Origin: Chloroflexota bacterium
Lineage (GTDB): Bacteria > Chloroflexota > Dehalococcoidia > Bin125
NCBI GenBank assembly: GCA_009838735.1
Contig: VXQZ01000043.1
Span: 1 to 57,379 of the forward strand
Direction: 5' to 3'
DNA length: 57,379 nt
Shown: one piece after another, positions 16,734 to 39,148 of the stretch
Layout: every line of letters begins with the position of its first letter
Position numbering within the stretch: position 1 is the stretch's first letter
Notes under the pieces: model-generated
Seen by the model: the letters and a program-made list of their open reading frames with translations, nothing else
What the model was told of the DNA's origin: nothing
Databases searched by the model: none
Made by a program: the position numbers and the translations under genes

Positions 16734-18350
16734 ATGGAAATACTGTTCACCGGTGGACGGGTGCTGACCATCGACCCGATGGATCGGATTGTCTCGGGAG
16801 TGGCCGTGCGCGATGGGCGAGTGATCGCGGTCGGCGACAGCGCCGAAGCGCGCGCCGCAGTAGGACCGGACGCAGTGCACGTCGACCTGCGCGGCCGCGC
16901 GCTCGTGCCGGGATTCTGCGACCCGCACAATCACTTCTCGATGACCACGTTCGAGCCGCGCTCGGTCGACTGCCGCAGGCCGCCGCTGGCGAACAAGTCG
17001 GCCGTGCTCGACGCGCTCGCGGCAGCGGCTTCCGGCAGCCCCGACGGGCAGTGGATCTGGGGACTCGGCTACTCCCAGACTGAACCGGGCGTCGTCACCG
17101 ACGACATGCTGTTCCGGCACGAACTGGACGAGGTGGCTCCGAACAACCCGGTCTGCGTGATGGATTCGTCGTATCACGCCTGCTACGCCAACTCGGCGGC
17201 GCTGGCGCTGGTCGGCATTGACCGCCAGACGCCCGATCCACGAGGTGGGAACATCCTGCACGACGACAGCGGGGAACCGAACGGCGTGCTCTGGGAGCGG
17301 GCGATGGATCCGGTCCACCACGCCACCATGCGTTCGTACATTGACACATTTGGCCCCGACGTTGTGGCTGGGCTGGTGGAACAGAACTCGATGCGCCACC
17401 TCTCGCACGGGATCACGAGCGTGGGCGACGCGCTGGTGATGCCCGAGAGCGCAGAGATCTATCGACTCACGGACGAGCGCGGACAGTTGCCGATCGCCAT
17501 TCACCAGATGCGCGGCGGACCCGGTTTCTTCGCTGCGCCCGAAGACGCCGCCGCAGGCGCCTACATGGACGATGACGTCTCGGACCGTCTGCGGGGCGGG
17601 ATTGTCAAGATTTTCATGGACCCGGTCTGGCCATCTCCGGCGATGGAGCTTTGCCATCCCGACGGCGCGACCGAACCGATCGGCGAGCCCTACTACGGGC
17701 AGGAAGAGGTCGACCACCTGGTGCTGGACGCGGCGTCTCGCGGCCTGCAGGTTGCGATTCATTGCATCGGTAACCGGGCGGTCGAACAGGGGTTGAACGC
17801 ATTCGAACGTGCGCTGCGAGAGACCCCCGGCGAGGATCGCCGATTCCGCATTGAACACTTCATGTTTGCGACCAATGATCAGATCGATCGAGCCCAGTCA
17901 CTCGGCGTGATGATCTCGCACCAACCGCCGTTCCTGCATCTGATCGGCGACTACTTCGAGCAGATGACTGCCCAGCCTGGGCTTGACACCGTGCCGATGC
18001 CGTATCGCAGCATGTTGGATGCCGGCGTGCACGTGGCGTCGGGATCCGACTTCCCCTGCGCCCCCGTGCCACCGCTGCTGGGGCTGTATGGATTAACAAC
18101 ACGCACCTCACACGACGGCACGGTGATCGCCGCCGACGAGGCGATCTCTCCGCTCGAAGCAATGCGCACCTACACGCTCAACTCGGCCGCCGCGATGTTC
18201 CGCGATCACGAGGTCGGATCGATCGAAGTCGGCAAGCGCGCCGACATGGCAGTGCTCAGCCATGATCCGACGCTGGTCGACTCGACATACCTTCGCGAGA
18301 TCGTCGTGCAGCAGACCTACGTCGACGGTGAGTTGTTGTACTCGGTGTAG
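16734..18350 (+). CDS. YtcJ-type amidohydrolase (1)
   Basis: This is a 538-residue metal-dependent hydrolase of the amidohydrolase 3 (YtcJ) group. It has the N-terminal beta-sandwich strands (ILFTGGRVLTID), the first metal pair in PHNH (His65 and His67), a conserved HCIGNRAVEQ His in the barrel, RIEH, and the catalytic Asp in ASGSDFPCAP. An AGGAG ribosome-binding site precedes the ATG. The reaction is probably hydrolysis of an amide, lactam or carbamate; the substrate is unknown. A close paralogue in the same orientation lies at 22864, and the two bracket the sterol-type operon. Confidence 0.9.
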   Translation: MEILFTGGRVLTIDPMDRIVSGVAVRDGRVIAVGDSAEARAAVGPDAVHVDLRGRALVPGFCDPHNHFSMTTFEPRSVDCRRPPLANKSAVLDALAAAASGSPDGQWIWGLGYSQTEPGVVTDDMLFRHELDEVAPNNPVCVMDSSYHACYANSAALALVGIDRQTPDPRGGNILHDDSGEPNGVLWERAMDPVHHATMRSYIDTFGPDVVAGLVEQNSMRHLSHGITSVGDALVMPESAEIYRLTDERGQLPIAIHQMRGGPGFFAAPEDAAAGAYMDDDVSDRLRGGIVKIFMDPVWPSPAMELCHPDGATEPIGEPYYGQEEVDHLVLDAASRGLQVAIHCIGNRAVEQGLNAFERALRETPGEDRRFRIEHFMFATNDQIDRAQSLGVMISHQPPFLHLIGDYFEQMTAQPGLDTVPMPYRSMLDAGVHVASGSDFPCAPVPPLLGLYGLTTRTSHDGTVIAADEAISPLEAMRTYTLNSAAAMFRDHEVGSIEVGKRADMAVLSHDPTLVDSTYLREIVVQQTYVDGELLYSV

Positions 18351-18358
18351 GAGACCGG

Positions 18359-19489
18359 TCAGGCTGCGGGAGTAGAGCGCTCGCGAGGCGAATGCGTCCG
18401 GTCCGTGTCGGTTGCCGTCGACTCGACGGGCAAGAACTGCTGATACCAGTGCCGCATCTGGTGTACGGGACCGTCGTCTCGACAGAGGATCGGTCGCGGC
18501 AGATACACCTTGTCCTGCCAGATCGCGGCATCCTGAGGCAGCTGCGACGCCCAGTTGCCGATCACGTACCAGACCAGCCAACGGGGAAGGTTGCGATCGG
18601 CGAACCAGCGGAGGTCGATCTGTTGCTCCAGCGGGCTGATTGGCAGAAAGGTCTGGTACATCACAATCTCGCCGCGGCCAGGCAAGGTAATGCGGAAGAG
18701 GAGCAAGCTGCCGGGCCCGTAGTACGAGACCCGCGCTCTTGCGTGCGTCCAGTCGTACTCGCGTCCGAAGATGCGTAGAGCCACTTCGTCATCGAAGTGC
18801 ATCATCCACGGAGCATCCTCGTCCAGTGTCCATTTCGCTGTGTGGACAATGTCGACCTTCGGGATCGGAATCTGTGTCCAGGGCAGCCGGAATTGGCCGT
18901 GCAGCGGTTGAAAGTGTGCTGTGTCAACGGCGTTTTCGGCGATCTCGATGATGTGCATTCCGACTCTGCCGAAATTGCGGTGACCGCGGAACACGAAGCT
19001 GCCGTCGTCCATTTCAGGGATGCGCGGAACTGGATAGGGCGGAGGCTCCTGGGCGTCGCCTGCAGAAGCGCCATCGGCACGGTGATACAGGAACAATTGC
19101 CCGTGCACTTCCTCCAATGGATACCTCCGCGCTGGGGATCCCGCTGGAGGATGTTCGCTGTAGGGAATGTGCTCGACGCTGCCGTCTCCTGCGAACTGCC
19201 ACTGGTGAAATGGACACTCGATGCAATCGGCGCGAATCCGTCCGCGAGCCAGATTGGCGCCCATATGCGGGCAGAACGCGTCCATCAGGTGTATCTCACC
19301 GCGCTCCCGCTCTCGCCAGAGGACGAACTGTTTGCCCAGGCATTCGAGGTAGCGAATCTCGCCGCGGCGCAGCGAGTCGGTCGAGGCCAGCCGATACCAG
19401 CCCGTCGGGTAGGGATATGGGTAGTCCTCAGCTCGGCGCGCCATGAGAAGCGAGGATGATTCCTCGCGTCTGGACCTGAAGCTGATCAT
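18359..19489 (-). CDS. Rieske [2Fe-2S] oxygenase, sterol 7-desaturase/KshA-like
   Basis: This is a 376-residue Rieske non-haem iron oxygenase subunit. The Rieske cluster ligands are Cys73/His75 in CPHMGANL and Cys92/His95 in CPFHQWQF, followed by GDG...IPY. The mononuclear iron site is ENAVDTAHFQPLH, giving Asn186, Asp189, His192 and His197. The GANL...CI.CPFH.W.F...IPY pattern is the one I associate with Neverland/DAF-36 cholesterol 7-desaturases and KshA. It overlaps the SMT gene by 4 bases (ATGA), so the two are co-translated, and this supports a sterol substrate. Electrons would come from a reductase not found nearby. The sterol role is inferred. Confidence 0.85.
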   Translation of the reverse strand: MISFRSRREESSSLLMARRAEDYPYPYPTGWYRLASTDSLRRGEIRYLECLGKQFVLWRERERGEIHLMDAFCPHMGANLARGRIRADCIECPFHQWQFAGDGSVEHIPYSEHPPAGSPARRYPLEEVHGQLFLYHRADGASAGDAQEPPPYPVPRIPEMDDGSFVFRGHRNFGRVGMHIIEIAENAVDTAHFQPLHGQFRLPWTQIPIPKVDIVHTAKWTLDEDAPWMMHFDDEVALRIFGREYDWTHARARVSYYGPGSLLLFRITLPGRGEIVMYQTFLPISPLEQQIDLRWFADRNLPRWLVWYVIGNWASQLPQDAAIWQDKVYLPRPILCRDDGPVHQMRHWYQQFLPVESTATDTDRTHSPRERSTPAA

Positions 19490-20517
19490 GATCCATCGCC
19501 AGCTCCGGCCGGCTTGCGGGCGTGCACCAGGAAGCTCGGGGTGAAGATCTCCAGTTCGCCTCCCTCGACCAGTGCATCGGCCGCGACGTTGAGGAACGAG
19601 GCGGTTTCACTGGTTCCCGCCGGAGCGATCCGCACCAGCTCCAGGAGCCTGGTCACGGTCGCCGTGAATCCACGGCCGATCGGCGTCCGGGCCCACGAGG
19701 TGAACGAGAAATCGCGTCCCTGCAGCGCCATGTACCAGGGAGTCTGTGGGTTGCCGTGCTCGGCCTGTTGATCGATGGCCTGGATGATTTCGAAGCCGGC
19801 TTCCTCGACCGTTTCCACCTGCCGTTCCGTAGTGAGCAGGTCCGGCACCGCGTTGTTCGTCTCGATGTCCTTGCGAATCTCCTGGTGACGGGAATTCGTG
19901 GGATCGAACTTGTCGGTGAAGCACCAATCGACGATCGCGATCTCGCCGCCCGGCTTCACGAGGCGATACAGCTCCTGGAAGAGCAGCAGGTTGTTCGGCG
20001 CGTGACAGACGGCCTCGAACGAGTAGATGGCGTCGAACGTCCCATCCTCAAGAGGCACATCCATGAAGTTGGCGTAGAGGAAGCGGCAGGTTTCGCTCAG
20101 TCCTGCCTTCGCCACCAGCCGCTCGCCTCGCGAAATCTGTTCGGGACTGAAGTTGATCCCGGTGATGTTGGCCCCGCTCGCCCTCCCGATCGTAATCATC
20201 GGACCGCCAACCCCGCATCCGAGGTCCGCAACCTCCATCGCCGGCTTGAGTTGAAGGATCTCTCCGATCTCCTCGTCGTGCCGCCGTTGGGACTCGACCA
20301 GGCTCTCGCCGGGTCGCCGTGGCGAAAAGTGGAAGGTCGTGCCCCAACCGAACACGTAAAAGCGGGTGACGGCGTCGTAGAACCGACTGACCAGCTTCGG
20401 TTGCTCTTCGATCCGCGCGGCGTCCTCCTGCGACTCGCTCAGTTGCTGAATCTGGTGGTAGTCGCGCAGGGCCTCGCGAGGATTGCCGCTGCGTTGTTCG
20501 TCTACATCGGTCGGCAC
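19486..20517 (-). CDS. Sterol C-24 methyltransferase (SMT/Erg6) homologue
   Basis: This enzyme family transfers methyl from SAM to C-24 of sterol side chains. All landmark regions are present: the sterol-binding aromatic motif YVFGWGTTFHF (54-64), the SAM loop LGCGVGGP (about 98-105), FEAVCHAP (167-174), DWCFTDKFD (197-205), and the C-terminal sterol-methyltransferase domain with TPWY, GR.FT, an APAGT segment and GGELEIFTP...ARKP. The homology to yeast Erg6 runs end to end. I chose GTG at 20517, behind AGGTGA, because upstream codons overlap the preceding gene. It lies 46 bases after the DUF1330 gene and overlaps the Rieske gene. Generic small-molecule methyltransferase function is the alternative, but I consider it unlikely. 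Confidence 0.9.
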   Translation of the reverse strand: MPTDVDEQRSGNPREALRDYHQIQQLSESQEDAARIEEQPKLVSRFYDAVTRFYVFGWGTTFHFSPRRPGESLVESQRRHDEEIGEILQLKPAMEVADLGCGVGGPMITIGRASGANITGINFSPEQISRGERLVAKAGLSETCRFLYANFMDVPLEDGTFDAIYSFEAVCHAPNNLLLFQELYRLVKPGGEIAIVDWCFTDKFDPTNSRHQEIRKDIETNNAVPDLLTTERQVETVEEAGFEIIQAIDQQAEHGNPQTPWYMALQGRDFSFTSWARTPIGRGFTATVTRLLELVRIAPAGTSETASFLNVAADALVEGGELEIFTPSFLVHARKPAGAGDGS

Positions 20518-20563
20518 GGCGTCACCTGGCCTCTCAGAAGGCGCCCGCAATCTGCGAACTGTG

Positions 20564-20857
20564 TCAGCCCTGGTATCCCGCTGCCACGACGACGCTGGAT
20601 CGCACTGCTCGCAGGCGAAGCTCGTCGAGGCCGGTGTACCTGGCCGAACGGACAAACGCCCCGGCGCCGTCGTCGCTGTCAAAGGACATGATTACCAGCC
20701 GCTGCGGCGTCCAGTCTCCTTCGATCACATCGAGGTCGCTGCCGCGCACGAGGAACGTGCCGCCGTGAGCGGTGACGGCCTCGTAGATTTTCTCCGCGAA
20801 CTCAGCGAACGCGTCGTCGTCGATCACCTCAGTGTCAATGACCAGGAAACTACTCAT
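20564..20857 (-). CDS. DUF1330 family protein
   Basis: This 97-residue protein is a small ferredoxin-like dimeric barrel of the DUF1330 group: strand VIDTEVIDDDAFAEFAE, helix to AHGGTFLVRG, EGDWTPQRLVIMSFDS and the helical end. Function of the group is unknown. It is first in the operon that continues into the sterol methyltransferase 46 bases downstream. A GAGAGGA ribosome-binding site lies about 9 bases upstream. Confidence 0.75.
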   Translation of the reverse strand: MSSFLVIDTEVIDDDAFAEFAEKIYEAVTAHGGTFLVRGSDLDVIEGDWTPQRLVIMSFDSDDGAGAFVRSARYTGLDELRLRAVRSSVVVAAGYQG

Positions 20858-20915: not shown

Positions 20916-20932
20916 TGAACGGGTCGCGTTCA
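20916..20932. promoter_or_regulatory. Dyad TGAACG-N5-CGTTCA before the DUF1330-SMT operon
   Basis: A perfect 6-bp inverted repeat with a 5-base centre overlaps the stop of the NCS2 permease and lies 59 bp upstream of the DUF1330 start. It could be an operator or a small attenuator; no protein partner is known. Confidence 0.3.
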
Positions 20933-22669
20933 TGATCGCGAACCCTCGACTTCGACCGTCACGATATCAACACCGTAGTACTTCCGATGCCGCACGGACG
21001 ACGCGTAGAAGCGCAACAACCGGAACGAGATGTCGCCCACGTCGGGTTCCTCGGCCTGTTCGCTCAGGTATGCGATACGGTCCTCCAGGTTTTCCTCCGA
21101 GAACAGCGCCAGGAACTCCAGCTCGACCGTCCCGCCGGCCGGACGCGCGATCAGCGCGAGGCGAGGCGGCTGGTCCGATTCGTAGTCGTCGCGCAGGTTC
21201 AACATGGCCGATAACGTCTCCTCGCCCGCCGCATGGAGACGGTCGATTGACTCCCGGTTCCATCGAAGATCGGCGCCGAGCTGGCGCAGGAACGCCTCAA
21301 TCTCGGGTAAGGCCGAGACATCCAGTTCCGACTCCATCCGCCGAGGCCGCGGTCGCGAACCGGCCAGCTCGAGCACCACGGTCAACAGCACCGCAGCCGA
21401 CACGCCGAAGACCACCCCATTACCCAGCGTGGCGCCCCAGGTACCGCCGATTACCTCCGCCAGGATGTTCTGGCTCTGCAGGCCGACCGCGATCGAGAGC
21501 GACGTCCCGACAATCGCTGCGCGCTGTCGGTTAAGTCCGTCTCGCAAGACGGTACGCATGCCTTCCACGAACAGCAGCCCCATGATCACCAACAGCAACG
21601 CGCCGCTGACTGGTCGCGGAATCGTCAGCAGCATGGCCACGATCTTGGGCAATAGCGCGGCCACGATCAGCATCACGCCAATGGTGATCCCGACCCGCCG
21701 AGCCGCAACTCCGGTGAACTGGAACAGAGAGATGGTCGAGGGCAGGTAGGCAATAGTCGGCGGCGTGCCGGCTATCCCTGAGAGGAAGATCGCGATGCCG
21801 CCAACGTTCAGCGTCCGTTGCACGCCGCGGAAGTCGATGCTGCGCGGCTCGCGCCGCGAGGCCTGCTGAATCGCCGCTCCCTCACTGCTGGAGCGCACCG
21901 CGACCACGGCGCTCACGACCAGGAAGACCAGCAGCAGCGCCCAGAAGTCCTCCTCCAGCACCGAACCGAATCCTGGCCAGCCAGCAACCTCCGGCAGATC
22001 GAACCAGGGCGCGTCGAGTGCTCGCTGGATGTCGTACACCCCGAGCGGGACCGCGATCGCGCAGCCGCCGATCAGGGCGATCGGCAAAGCCCAGAGGCGC
22101 CACAGGCCACTGCCGAGCAGCATCAGCAATGCCGTGATGGCCAGGGTCGCCAGCCCCACAACAGCACCGGCCCCGTCGCTGGCGCCGACGGGCACGTCGT
22201 TGAGCCGTCCGAGCGCGATCGGCATGGCCGACAACGCGATCATCATGAACGCAACGCCCGAGACGACCGGAGTGATCAATCGTCGTAGCTGGGCCAGGCG
22301 GGCAGCCACGACAAACTGAATCAGAGAGGACGCGATCACCAGGCTCGACATCAGCGCCAGCCCGCCCTGCTCCACGGCCAGCACGCAAGCCGCCAGAAAC
22401 GGAACGCCCGATCCCATCAGCAGGACGTGTCCCGGTCCCAGGCGACCGATCTTCGATGCGTGCAGAGCTGTGGAGACGCCGGCCACGATTAGTGCGCCGA
22501 CAATGGCCCAGGTCATGTAGCTGCCGTCGTCGTTGAACGCCGCCGAGAAGATCACCACGAAGGTGACCGTGTTCGACACGATCAGAACCATGCCCTGAAA
22601 CGCGACATTGAGGGTCAAGAGAGGCGGAACGCGCTCATCGGGCTCGTAACGAATGTGTTCGTTGGCCAC
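20930..22669 (-). CDS. NCS2 (xanthine/uracil permease family) transporter with C-terminal fused domain
   Basis: Residues about 15-440 form a multi-helix nucleobase-cation symporter-2 (NAT) protein, with the family-type segment GTPPTIAYLPSTISLFQFTG and a later QSQNILAEVIGG stretch. Substrates of relatives are xanthine, uric acid, uracil or ascorbate. The last 130 residues are extra: the stretch RESIDRLHAAGEETLSAML and a following charged region ending in HRKYYGVDIVTVEVEG resemble a degenerate RsbW-like ATPase or regulatory domain and face the cytoplasm. Ordinary family members end near 450 residues. It reads into the DUF1330-SMT-Rieske genes with a 72-base gap. Confidence 0.8.
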   Translation of the reverse strand: MANEHIRYEPDERVPPLLTLNVAFQGMVLIVSNTVTFVVIFSAAFNDDGSYMTWAIVGALIVAGVSTALHASKIGRLGPGHVLLMGSGVPFLAACVLAVEQGGLALMSSLVIASSLIQFVVAARLAQLRRLITPVVSGVAFMMIALSAMPIALGRLNDVPVGASDGAGAVVGLATLAITALLMLLGSGLWRLWALPIALIGGCAIAVPLGVYDIQRALDAPWFDLPEVAGWPGFGSVLEEDFWALLLVFLVVSAVVAVRSSSEGAAIQQASRREPRSIDFRGVQRTLNVGGIAIFLSGIAGTPPTIAYLPSTISLFQFTGVAARRVGITIGVMLIVAALLPKIVAMLLTIPRPVSGALLLVIMGLLFVEGMRTVLRDGLNRQRAAIVGTSLSIAVGLQSQNILAEVIGGTWGATLGNGVVFGVSAAVLLTVVLELAGSRPRPRRMESELDVSALPEIEAFLRQLGADLRWNRESIDRLHAAGEETLSAMLNLRDDYESDQPPRLALIARPAGGTVELEFLALFSEENLEDRIAYLSEQAEEPDVGDISFRLLRFYASSVRHRKYYGVDIVTVEVEGSRS

Positions 22670-22863: not shown

Positions 22864-24471
22864 ATGGAGCTGCTCTTCACCGGTGGACGCGTGCTGACGA
22901 TGGACGGACTCGATCGGATTGTGTCCGGAGTCGCCGTGCGCGACGGCAAGATCATCGCGGTCGGCGACAGCGGCGAGGTACGGCGATCAGTCGGCCCCGA
23001 CGCCACACATGTCGACCTGCGCGGCCGCGCCCTGATTCCCGGCTTCTGCGATCCCCACAACCACTTCTCGATGACGACCTTCGAGCCGGTATCGGTTGAC
23101 TGCCGGATCCCGCCCCTCGCCGGCAAGCCAGCCGTCCTCGACGCCATCGCCGTCGCGGCTGAGGCCGCGCCCGCCGGCCAGTGGGTCTGGGGACTTGGAT
23201 ACACCGCCCGACACGCCAACGGCGGCTGGCTTACCCGCTCCGAGCTCGACGACGTCGCGCCCGACAATCCGGTCTGCGTGATGGACTATTCCTACCATGC
23301 CAGCTACGCCAACTCGGCAGCGATGTCGATCGCCGGGATCAACTTCGAGACGCCCGATCCCCGCGGCGGTCAGATCCTGCGTGACGAGAGCGGCGAAGCG
23401 ACCGGAATGCTCTACGAACGCGCCTCGGACCTCGTCCATCACGCCTCGATGCGGTCGCACATCGACACGCTCGGCCCCGAAGTCGTGGCCGACCTGGTCG
23501 AACAGAATGCGCTGCGCCACCTGTCGCACGGCGTCACCAGCGTCGGCGACGCCGTCGTCATGCCTGAGAGCGCCGAGATGTACCGCCTCGCCGACGAACG
23601 CGGCAAGCTGCCAATCGTCATCCACCAGATGCGCGGCGGAAACGGCTTCTTCGCCGCGCCCGAGGCGGCGGCCAATGGCGCCTTCCTCCAGGACGACGTC
23701 TCCGACCGCCTGCGAGGCGGGATCGTCAAGCTGTTCATGGACCCGGTCTATCCCTCCAACGCGCTGCGCAAGTGCCACGCCGACGGCACCTTCGAGGATG
23801 TCGGCGAGCCCTACTACAACCAGGACGAGGTCGATCAGCTCGTGTTCAACGCGGCCTCGCACGGTCTGCAGACGGCGATTCACTGCCTCGGAAACCGCGC
23901 CATCGAGCAAGCGCTCAACACCTACGAGCGGGTCCAACGAGAAATCCCGCGCAGCGATGCCCGCTACCGGATCGAGCACTTCTTCTTCGCCGATCCCGGC
24001 CAGATGGAGCGCGCAGCCTCGCTGGGCGTGATCATCTCCCACCAACCCGCCTTCCTCTACTCGGTCGGCCAGGGCTTCGTCGACTTCATCGCCGACGCCG
24101 GCCTGACGATCCCGCCGCTGCCCTACCGCTCATTCCTCGACGCCGGCGTCACGGTCGCCTCCGGCTCCGACTTCCCCTGCGCCCCGGTCGAGCCATTGAT
24201 CGGCCTCTACGGCCTCACCGCGCGGCGCTCGCGTGAGGGCGATGTGATTGCACCGGAAGAGACACTCTCGCCGCTCGAGGCGCTGAAGACCCAGACGATC
24301 AACTCCGCCGTCGCCATGTTCCGCGACCACGAAGTCGGCTCAGTCGAAGTCGGCAAGCGAGCCGACCTGGTCGTCCTCAGCCACGATCCAACGCTGGTCG
24401 ATCCGGAGTCCATCCGTGAGATCTCGGTGCAACGGACGTATGTGGATGGGGAATTGCTGTACTCGGTCTAG
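22864..24471 (+). CDS. YtcJ-type amidohydrolase (2)
   Basis: This 535-residue protein is a close paralogue of the one at 16734, identical at most positions including the PHNH metal motif, HQMRGG, IHCLGNRAIEQ, RIEH and SGSDFPCAP. A GGGAGG ribosome-binding site precedes the ATG. Differences cluster in the stretch after WGLGY, which lies near the entrance of the active site, so the two may differ in substrate. It is convergent with a VOC gene, sharing an interlocked CTAG stop. Confidence 0.9.
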   Translation: MELLFTGGRVLTMDGLDRIVSGVAVRDGKIIAVGDSGEVRRSVGPDATHVDLRGRALIPGFCDPHNHFSMTTFEPVSVDCRIPPLAGKPAVLDAIAVAAEAAPAGQWVWGLGYTARHANGGWLTRSELDDVAPDNPVCVMDYSYHASYANSAAMSIAGINFETPDPRGGQILRDESGEATGMLYERASDLVHHASMRSHIDTLGPEVVADLVEQNALRHLSHGVTSVGDAVVMPESAEMYRLADERGKLPIVIHQMRGGNGFFAAPEAAANGAFLQDDVSDRLRGGIVKLFMDPVYPSNALRKCHADGTFEDVGEPYYNQDEVDQLVFNAASHGLQTAIHCLGNRAIEQALNTYERVQREIPRSDARYRIEHFFFADPGQMERAASLGVIISHQPAFLYSVGQGFVDFIADAGLTIPPLPYRSFLDAGVTVASGSDFPCAPVEPLIGLYGLTARRSREGDVIAPEETLSPLEALKTQTINSAVAMFRDHEVGSVEVGKRADLVVLSHDPTLVDPESIREISVQRTYVDGELLYSV

Positions 24472-37435: not shown

Positions 37436-39148
37436 CTAGGCGTGCAACGCTTCGCCACGATGCAGCCTCGCCGCAGTTTCGTAGGTCTGGCCCATCGAGC
37501 GGACCGTCGGCGCGTGCGCGGTGAGGAAGCGGCTGGCTCCTATCAACACGTCGTCGGCTTCCGGTCGGTCGCCAAAGCGGTCGACCAGGCGGAGCGCGGC
37601 GTCGTAGATCTGGAAAGAGTGGAAGCCGGCGTCCTCGCGCAGCAGCGCGGTGCCCAGGGTCCGCACGACCTCGTCCCGATGACCACCGGCGAGCAGGTCG
37701 GCCACCGACTGTCCCGTCTCGTCGACCTGTTGTTGGCGGTCGAAATGATCGAGCACGTCGTCGGTTGAGGTTGAGCCGCCGTTCGGCTCGGGTCGCGGCT
37801 GGCGCGGCATGTTGAGGAAGCGTTCCAGGTAGACCGACGCCGCGCCGTCGAGGATGCCGCGGGCCAGTTCGCGCGAAGGCGCGCGCTGCATCGCTCGGTC
37901 GACCGCATTCGTGTAAGTGAATGTGTGGTGGACGGTGTTCCAGTCGCCGAACTCGTTGGAGATGTGGAAGTGCATCGGGCGACGAGCGGCCGCGTAGGCG
38001 ACCGTGGCGCTGAGTTCCGTCAACGGCGCCCCGGCGCGGGCAGCGTCGATGATCTTGCGCAGCGAACGGTCGGGCGGATCGTCAAGGATCGACTCCGCGA
38101 AGGGTCGGTGTTCGTCCCAGGATTCGTTGCGCTCGCCGCCGACAGCCAACGCCTCGTCCAGCGCCTTGCCGGCCTCGTCCAGCAGCCGCGGCAGGTCGAC
38201 CGGGTGTTGCCAGGCGGAGGTCTCCTCCATCCGCTGGGCGCCGGTGATGGTGGGAATGATCGAACTGAGCACGTCGGGCGCGGTGTCCCAACCGACCACG
38301 TCGAGCAGCTCGCAGGCCTTGTTGGCGAAGTCAAGTGTGTGTCCTACGTCCATGAAGGTGTGGTCGGTTGATGCGGCGAAGAGCAGGTCGGCGAGCTGCG
38401 ACTCGTTCAGGCCAGCGACGGCGGCAGTCCGCAAACAACGCTCGGCCGCGTTGCGCGATCGCACCTCGGCGAAGCGGCGGAACCAGGTGCGGAACTGCTC
38501 GGGCCGATCCTCGTCCGTGTCCAGTGCGGCGATGTCGAAGTCGGGCGGCTGCCCTTCCACGCTGCGGGCGACGTGCACGACGCCGTGATAGAGGGCGCGC
38601 GGTCGGTCGTCTGCTGCAAGATTCGGCAGCACGTTGGCCATCGCGGTGAGGATCGAGAGTCCGCTGGACCATCCGGCGGCACGGTTCTTGACGCCAAAGC
38701 GTGCTGCTTCGGCGAGGACCAGGTCTTCCCGCCCAGCCTCGCACAGGCCGATCACCGATTTGGCGATGACCAGCCGCAGGTTCTGTTCCAGGCCTTCAGA
38801 GAGTTTGCGCGTGCAGTGCGCGACGACTTCTTCCTCCTGCGGTTCTGGATCGAGCCAGACTGTGCTGTCTCGAATCTCGGCGCGGAAAGCGGCGACATCG
38901 TCGGCGAAGAGATCAAAGGCGCAGCCGCCTGAGAGGTCGAACTTGGCGTGGTGCCAGTGACAGGTCAGGATGCCGTCGGCCACTGTCCCCTGGCTGAGCG
39001 GGAAGCCCATGTGCGGGCAACGATTGTCGACGGCGAAGACCTGATCGCGGTGCCAGAACACGGCCGCCGTGCGTTGACCGGTGGAAACGACACGCACGCC
39101 GTCGCGCTGCAATTCCTCAAGCGAGCAAACTCGTACGGTGGCGTTCAT
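37436..39148 (-). CDS. Rieske [2Fe-2S] domain fused to a large helical domain
   Basis: The first 105 residues are a Rieske ferredoxin-type domain with Cys44/His46 in CPHMGF and Cys63/His66 in CHWHH. The remaining 460 residues are mainly alpha-helical and rich in Ala, Asp and His, with His-containing stretches HTFMDVGHTLDFANKACELL and MHFHISNEFGDWNTVHH that could hold a metal. I recognise no oxygenase catalytic domain, so this is not an ordinary ring-hydroxylating oxygenase. The protein may be a redox protein acting on an unknown substrate. It is divergent from the MetE-like gene. Confidence 0.72.
   Translation of the reverse strand: MNATVRVCSLEELQRDGVRVVSTGQRTAAVFWHRDQVFAVDNRCPHMGFPLSQGTVADGILTCHWHHAKFDLSGGCAFDLFADDVAAFRAEIRDSTVWLDPEPQEEEVVAHCTRKLSEGLEQNLRLVIAKSVIGLCEAGREDLVLAEAARFGVKNRAAGWSSGLSILTAMANVLPNLAADDRPRALYHGVVHVARSVEGQPPDFDIAALDTDEDRPEQFRTWFRRFAEVRSRNAAERCLRTAAVAGLNESQLADLLFAASTDHTFMDVGHTLDFANKACELLDVVGWDTAPDVLSSIIPTITGAQRMEETSAWQHPVDLPRLLDEAGKALDEALAVGGERNESWDEHRPFAESILDDPPDRSLRKIIDAARAGAPLTELSATVAYAAARRPMHFHISNEFGDWNTVHHTFTYTNAVDRAMQRAPSRELARGILDGAASVYLERFLNMPRQPRPEPNGGSTSTDDVLDHFDRQQQVDETGQSVADLLAGGHRDEVVRTLGTALLREDAGFHSFQIYDAALRLVDRFGDRPEADDVLIGASRFLTAHAPTVRSMGQTYETAARLHRGEALHA

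Follow-up and report, generated by a model that had tools for sequence, protein, structure and literature searches.

A sterol methyltransferase gene coupled to a KshA-like Rieske oxygenase gene in a Chloroflexota genome with its own sterol pathway

A bacterial gene of the sterol C-24 methyltransferase (SMT) family that overlaps a Rieske oxygenase gene raises two questions: do both products act on sterols and, if so, are these sterols made by the bacterium or taken from its surroundings? The 57,379 nucleotides analyzed here (hereafter the window) correspond to contig C41 of a draft genome that totals 3.15 Mb and has a completeness of 96.6%. Its relatives of the same genus are Chloroflexota ('Dehalococcoidia') MAGs whose isolate labels read RHO, IRC, jk18, p16 and bin125. 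The labels RHO, IRC and bin125 are presumably those of sponge samples; the relatives apparently come from sponges and the group appears mainly sponge-associated.

The locus and its gene products

The features of the locus, all on the reverse strand, are the following:

18359..19489 (-): Rieske non-heme iron oxygenase, KshA-like, clade R1, usually adjoining an SMT (PF00355 and PF19298; tree; structure model)
19486..20517 (-): SMT of the SMT/Erg6 family, 'SMT-A' type, 343 aa, GTG start (domains, motifs, tree, dN/dS)
19510..19704 (-): SMT C-terminal domain PF08498 (86.2 bits in a six-frame search)
20326..20358 (-): aromatic sterol motif (region I), residues 54-64, YVFGWGTTFHF (SMT translation)
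20564..20857 (-): DUF1330 protein, 97 aa (PF07045, E 1.4e-20; gene-order comparison)
20930..22669 (-): NCS2-type permease, xanthine/uracil family (PF00860, E 5.5e-39; order conserved in relatives)

The open reading frames agree with the preliminary description for the gene positions, the 4-base overlap between SMT and Rieske genes and the 46-base gap between DUF1330 and SMT (20518-20563). The SMT frame is open from 19486 to 20682 (-), GTG 20517 being the most likely real start. The Rieske gene encodes 376 aa from ATG 19489, i.e., with an ATGA overlap at 19486-19489; this start is the likelier one because the same overlap and a similar N-terminus are found in several relatives. The permease gene, also on the reverse strand and separated from DUF1330 by 72 bases, is located upstream and probably belongs to the same transcription unit as DUF1330, SMT and Rieske genes. 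The assignment of DUF1330 to a sterol operon, proposed earlier, is weakened: in a relative (G194, loci L100/L114) the permease-DUF1330 pair occurs twice in succession, with the SMT next to one of the two only, thus DUF1330 is more likely the partner of the permease than of the SMT. A role of DUF1330 as a sterol gene is not supported by this comparison of gene order. The domain match itself (PF07045) exceeds the Pfam cut-off. The permease-DUF1330-SMT-Rieske unit is flanked by two amidohydrolase-3 genes (16734-18350 and 22864-24471), about 70% identical and located on the opposite strand.

The Erg6/SMT landmarks announced in the preliminary description are all present in the translation: the motif at residues 54-64, FEAVCHAP (167-174), FTDKFD (200-205) and the C-terminal domain. 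The Pfam cut-offs are exceeded by a wide margin by Sterol_MT_C (PF08498, E 2.7e-23, 82 bits vs. 21.7) and Methyltransf_11 (PF08241, E 2.6e-19), and the same search with PF08498 gave no match in any of the 14 control genomes. The motifs of regions I to III (GWG..FHF, EA.CHAP, TD.FD) all occur, and F53, G57, W58, H63 and F64 are identical across the 18 SMTs aligned. Region I contains Val where most SMTs, including those of close relatives in the same genus, have Glu. Plant SMT1 and yeast Erg6 (approximate reference sequences) share the same domains with the window SMT at about 40% and 34% identity, respectively; the window gene differs from them in being bacterial and in having this Val instead of Glu. 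The full-length structure model (pLDDT 83) matched generic class I methyltransferases only, geranyl-diphosphate C-methyltransferases included, and no solved SMT was among the matches.

In the tree, the window SMT falls among known SMTs, bacterial and eukaryotic, apart from other methyltransferases (support 100/99 vs. two outgroups), which answers the phylogenetic check proposed earlier. The eukaryotic references (approximate sequences) lie inside this group, interspersed with bacterial SMTs, and there is little deep resolution. A third outgroup, a Mycolicibacterium plasmid protein placed among the SMTs on a branch of 8.1 units, was disregarded. Domain, motifs and tree thus support membership of the SMT family, and the earlier statement that the locus makes or modifies sterols very probably holds in that it acts on sterols. 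SMTs were found in 39 of the 393 sampled genomes of the class (up to four copies); of the 14 further genomes of the genus, 12 belong to these 39. Three types can be distinguished in the tree: (i) the window type, shared with gammaproteobacteria and Acidobacteriota; (ii) a type flanking sterol clusters; (iii) a long-branched type, 'SMT2', to which the second SMT of the source genome belongs (one copy, contig C11).

That the methyltransferase uses an SMT-derived fold on a non-sterol triterpenoid or another terpenoid is considered very improbable. The long branch of the second SMT, the fold matches with geranyl-diphosphate C-methyltransferases, the Val of region I and a squalene-hopene cyclase encoded on contig C13 would fit such a function. 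However, hopanoids have no delta-24 bond in the side chain, the motifs of regions I to III are intact, the close relatives retain Glu, and sister proteins of the window SMT are encoded beside sterol genes (L123-L125, L135).

The Rieske (PF00355) and KshA_C (PF19298) domains both pass their cut-offs in the second protein, in which the cluster cysteines and histidines and the iron ligands are conserved. KshA is its best PDB match by sequence, and the structure model is closest to KshA5 (Z 29.5, 316 residues, 3.1 A). With KshA it shares the fold, both domains and 22-27% identity. It is nevertheless located outside the KshA clade (100/100), in a clade of its own, R1 (98/100), that is distinct from every characterized steroid Rieske enzyme included, SdmA among them, and from a second KshA-like clade, R2. 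The NCBIfam SdmA model gives only 35 bits, for a cut-off of 600. Values of dN/dS are low for both genes: 0.06-0.17 for the SMT and 0.13-0.15 for the Rieske gene. Both genes were compared with those of G073, G161 and G103, in which the gene order is the same, and the SMT also with that of G194, which is not accompanied by a Rieske gene. The low values indicate that both frames are real genes under strong purifying selection. Another protein encoded in the window (37436-39148; 570 aa) combines a Rieske domain at the N-terminus with a long C-terminal part that has no Pfam match.

The sterol pathway of the source genome

The preliminary description suggested that the sterols might come from a host or the environment, since no squalene epoxidase or cyclase is found in the window, and proposed to search the genome for both. 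Both are encoded in the same genome, as a single 1141-residue frame on contig C36 (squalene epoxidase-oxidosqualene cyclase fusion, SE-OSC), and for this reason the host-sterol argument falls away. Aligned to human lanosterol synthase, the cyclase part shows VSDCTAE, i.e., the lanosterol-type Val. Upstream of SE-OSC on the same strand are genes for (i) a P450, read as CYP51, whose match is to Pfam p450 only; (ii) an ERG4/ERG24-family reductase; (iii) two proteins with matches to SdmA (398 bits, a Rieske protein) and to SdmB (292 bits), neither of which reaches the strict NCBIfam cut-off of 600. Contig C23 encodes a further ERG4/ERG24-family reductase. HpnC/D-like (squalene synthase-type) genes, which would provide squalene, are on contig C13. 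No ERG3/SC5D-family desaturase was found in the source genome. A 240-aa protein beside the sterol cluster (L009:13691-14413, on the same C36) has a sub-threshold match to EBP and 30 similar loci; it is a candidate delta-8 to delta-7 sterol isomerase. The core pathway to demethylated sterols is complete in the source genome, as it is in most members of the genus.

The SMT-Rieske locus and the C36 cluster are on different contigs; in the source genome no SMT flanks the C36 cluster, and the window locus is distinct from the ERG24-CYP51-cyclase operon. Contamination is unlikely, as several MAGs of the genus, each assembled independently, show the same gene order on long contigs.

Scavenging as the sole source of sterols is ruled out by SE-OSC and the demethylation genes. 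A milder version, in which the main substrates would be sterols of the host sponge that the bacterium takes up and modifies, as suggested for Chlamydiae, is quite unlikely. The sponge setting, the separation of the locus from the biosynthesis cluster and an RND transporter of the same genome (see below) are in its favour, as is the Chlamydiae SMT that, without other sterol genes, gave 24-isopropyl sterols in vitro (PMC10070321). On the other hand, the core pathway is complete in the genome and in most of the genus, and host sterols of the cholesterol type have no delta-24 bond.

The SMT-Rieske pair in other genomes

A search of the class with the Rieske protein only, i.e., without use of the SMT, gave 13 window-type loci in 10 genomes (at least 54% identity). 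Seven of these loci adjoin an intact SMT and one an SMT fragment; all 10 genomes also have an SMT. The pair recurs in Thermoanaerobaculia of the Acidobacteriota (L127), Gammaproteobacteria (L131, L134, L136), Myxococcota (L137, L176, L177, L190), Binatota (L181) and an unclassified genome (L159), and the SMTs of these cross-phylum pairs belong to more than one SMT clade. The pair is not obligate: the SMT of G194 (L100) has no Rieske gene, and in G151 the Rieske gene is elsewhere. In G151 (C22:65053-66332), a decayed SMT fragment is followed by a Rieske gene interrupted by TAG. Between the window and G161 (L094), dS is 0.31 for the SMT and 1.16 for the adjoining Rieske gene, i.e., the two neighbours have different histories even between close relatives, which suggests allele replacement or recombination.

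In three closely related loci (L159, L176, L190), attributed to one Myxococcota lineage, the next gene after the pair is DWF1/DHCR24-like; over 456-558 columns it shows 38-39% identity to plant DWF1 (approximate reference sequence). One contig of L181 carries both an SMT-Rieske-SMT run and an SE-OSC fusion. Because of these contexts, making or tailoring sterols is favored over degrading them.

It is unlikely, though worth weighing, that the Rieske protein is a steroid-degrading oxygenase of the KshA type and the locus sterol-catabolic, the SMT diverting or detoxifying host sterols. KshA gives the best matches in sequence and fold, as mentioned above; SAR202 Chloroflexi have been proposed as steroid degraders and steroid degraders live in sponges (PMC5790920); and many genes of the window look catabolic (CoA-transferase, Baeyer-Villiger-like FMO, PhyH, amidohydrolases). 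Nevertheless, the position outside the KshA clade argues against it, as does the biosynthetic setting of the pair in Myxococcota and Binatota. The best score for an HsaC-like extradiol dioxygenase, an enzyme of the 9,10-seco pathway, in this nearly complete genome is 26 bits (TIGR03213, cut-off 366), an argument that is weak, since the control genomes are also all below the cut-off.

A second association of this kind is found on contig C39 (G000:C39:128000-146000, L212), which carries an R2 Rieske gene, a GPP34-P450 fusion, an FAD amine-oxidase-like protein and the RND transporter, a relative of HpnN and BstA with a sterol-sensing domain. The set is conserved: most of its genes flank SMT2-type SMTs in other Chloroflexota families, and some do in Nitrospira. 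The set looks like a module for sterol tailoring and transport. Considering the R1 pairs and the R2 genes near SMT2-type SMTs, KshA-like Rieske enzymes accompany SMTs twice over.

Proposed function and published systems

The reading regarded as probable is that SMT and Rieske genes form a two-gene sterol module, in which C-24 methylation of an endogenous delta-24 sterol would be followed by oxidation of the sterol by the Rieske enzyme. Squalene would be converted to oxidosqualene and lanosterol by the epoxidase-cyclase fusion, then demethylated at C-14 and C-4. Lanosterol-type products retain the delta-24 bond needed by SMTs. The SMT very likely methylates such an endogenous sterol; it would transfer the methyl group of SAM to C-24 and give a 24-methyl(ene) sterol, possibly a 24-ethyl sterol upon double methylation. 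The co-translated Rieske enzyme would then oxidize the same sterol, with an electron donor encoded elsewhere. Arguments against this reading are the location of the pair away from the sterol cluster, the relatives in which the two genes are not paired, the position of R1 apart from the characterized steroid Rieske enzymes and the different histories of the two genes.

Ring desaturation or hydroxylation would be the most likely type of Rieske reaction. Desaturation is attractive because the genome has no ERG3-type enzyme; hydroxylation is equally open. Neverland/DAF-36, the cholesterol 7-desaturase of animals, has the KshA-like Rieske architecture and an intact 3-hydroxysterol as substrate, and may be a model for the window enzyme. 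It is tentatively proposed, with considerable doubt, that R1 and perhaps also R2 are bacterial sterol ring desaturases replacing the C-5 desaturase ERG3/SC5D or acting at C-7. If true, bacteria of several phyla could make by themselves 24-alkyl sterols of the delta-5/delta-7 type, chemically like those of sponges and algae. In any case, the recurring pair is a concrete candidate for a late step of bacterial sterol synthesis.

Steranes alkylated at C-24 are taken as evidence of eukaryotes, and 24-isopropylcholestane as evidence of early sponges. A bacterium that has its own pathway to the sterol core as well as two SMTs and an oxygenase linked to an SMT makes a contribution of sponge symbionts to these compounds more plausible. 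The preliminary description had stressed the importance of such a bacterium for interpreting sterane biomarkers; the argument is sound, but it has appeared in print before, together with in-vitro results on other bacterial SMTs (PMC10070321). In that work, Brown et al. (2023) described bacterial SMTs from sponge and other metagenomes, several of which were active in vitro and some of which transferred two or three methyl groups; propylation by symbiont SMTs is also published. The window SMT has the same family, domains and sponge-symbiont setting, but its gene is not part of the sterol cluster and has a Rieske gene as partner, and the word 'Rieske' is absent from PMC10070321.

Kelly et al. (2022) described clusters of steroid genes (CSG) in Ircinia symbionts of ten phyla, Dehalococcoidia included, with horizontal transfer and a flanking SMT (PMC9531527). 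The C36 cluster (SdmB, SdmA, ERG24, CYP51, SE-OSC) matches CSG, whereas the SMT-Rieske pair is a separate locus and the SMT flanking CSG belongs to a different SMT clade. No description of the pair was found in the main texts of the open-licence papers searched. Sterol methylation by sponge bacteria being already known, what is apparently not yet described is the pairing of an SMT with a KshA-like Rieske enzyme of its own clade, which recurs in several phyla and is partnered with the SMT, not with steroid catabolism genes as KshA is.

The gammaproteobacterial msb locus of Mohanty et al. (2020) contains the same gene set as the source genome and the same fused enzyme, MsbE, with the lanosterol-type valine (PMC7074536). 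Its Rieske protein MsbB is of the SdmA type, unlike that of the window. The SE-OSC fusion is therefore not new: it is published as MsbE and as 'fused SMO/OSC' (PMC10070321). In a related family, epoxidase and cyclase are encoded by two neighbouring genes or are interrupted by a stop (G317:C9:25405-28720 and G287:C15:8986-12230), which may represent the state before or after fusion.
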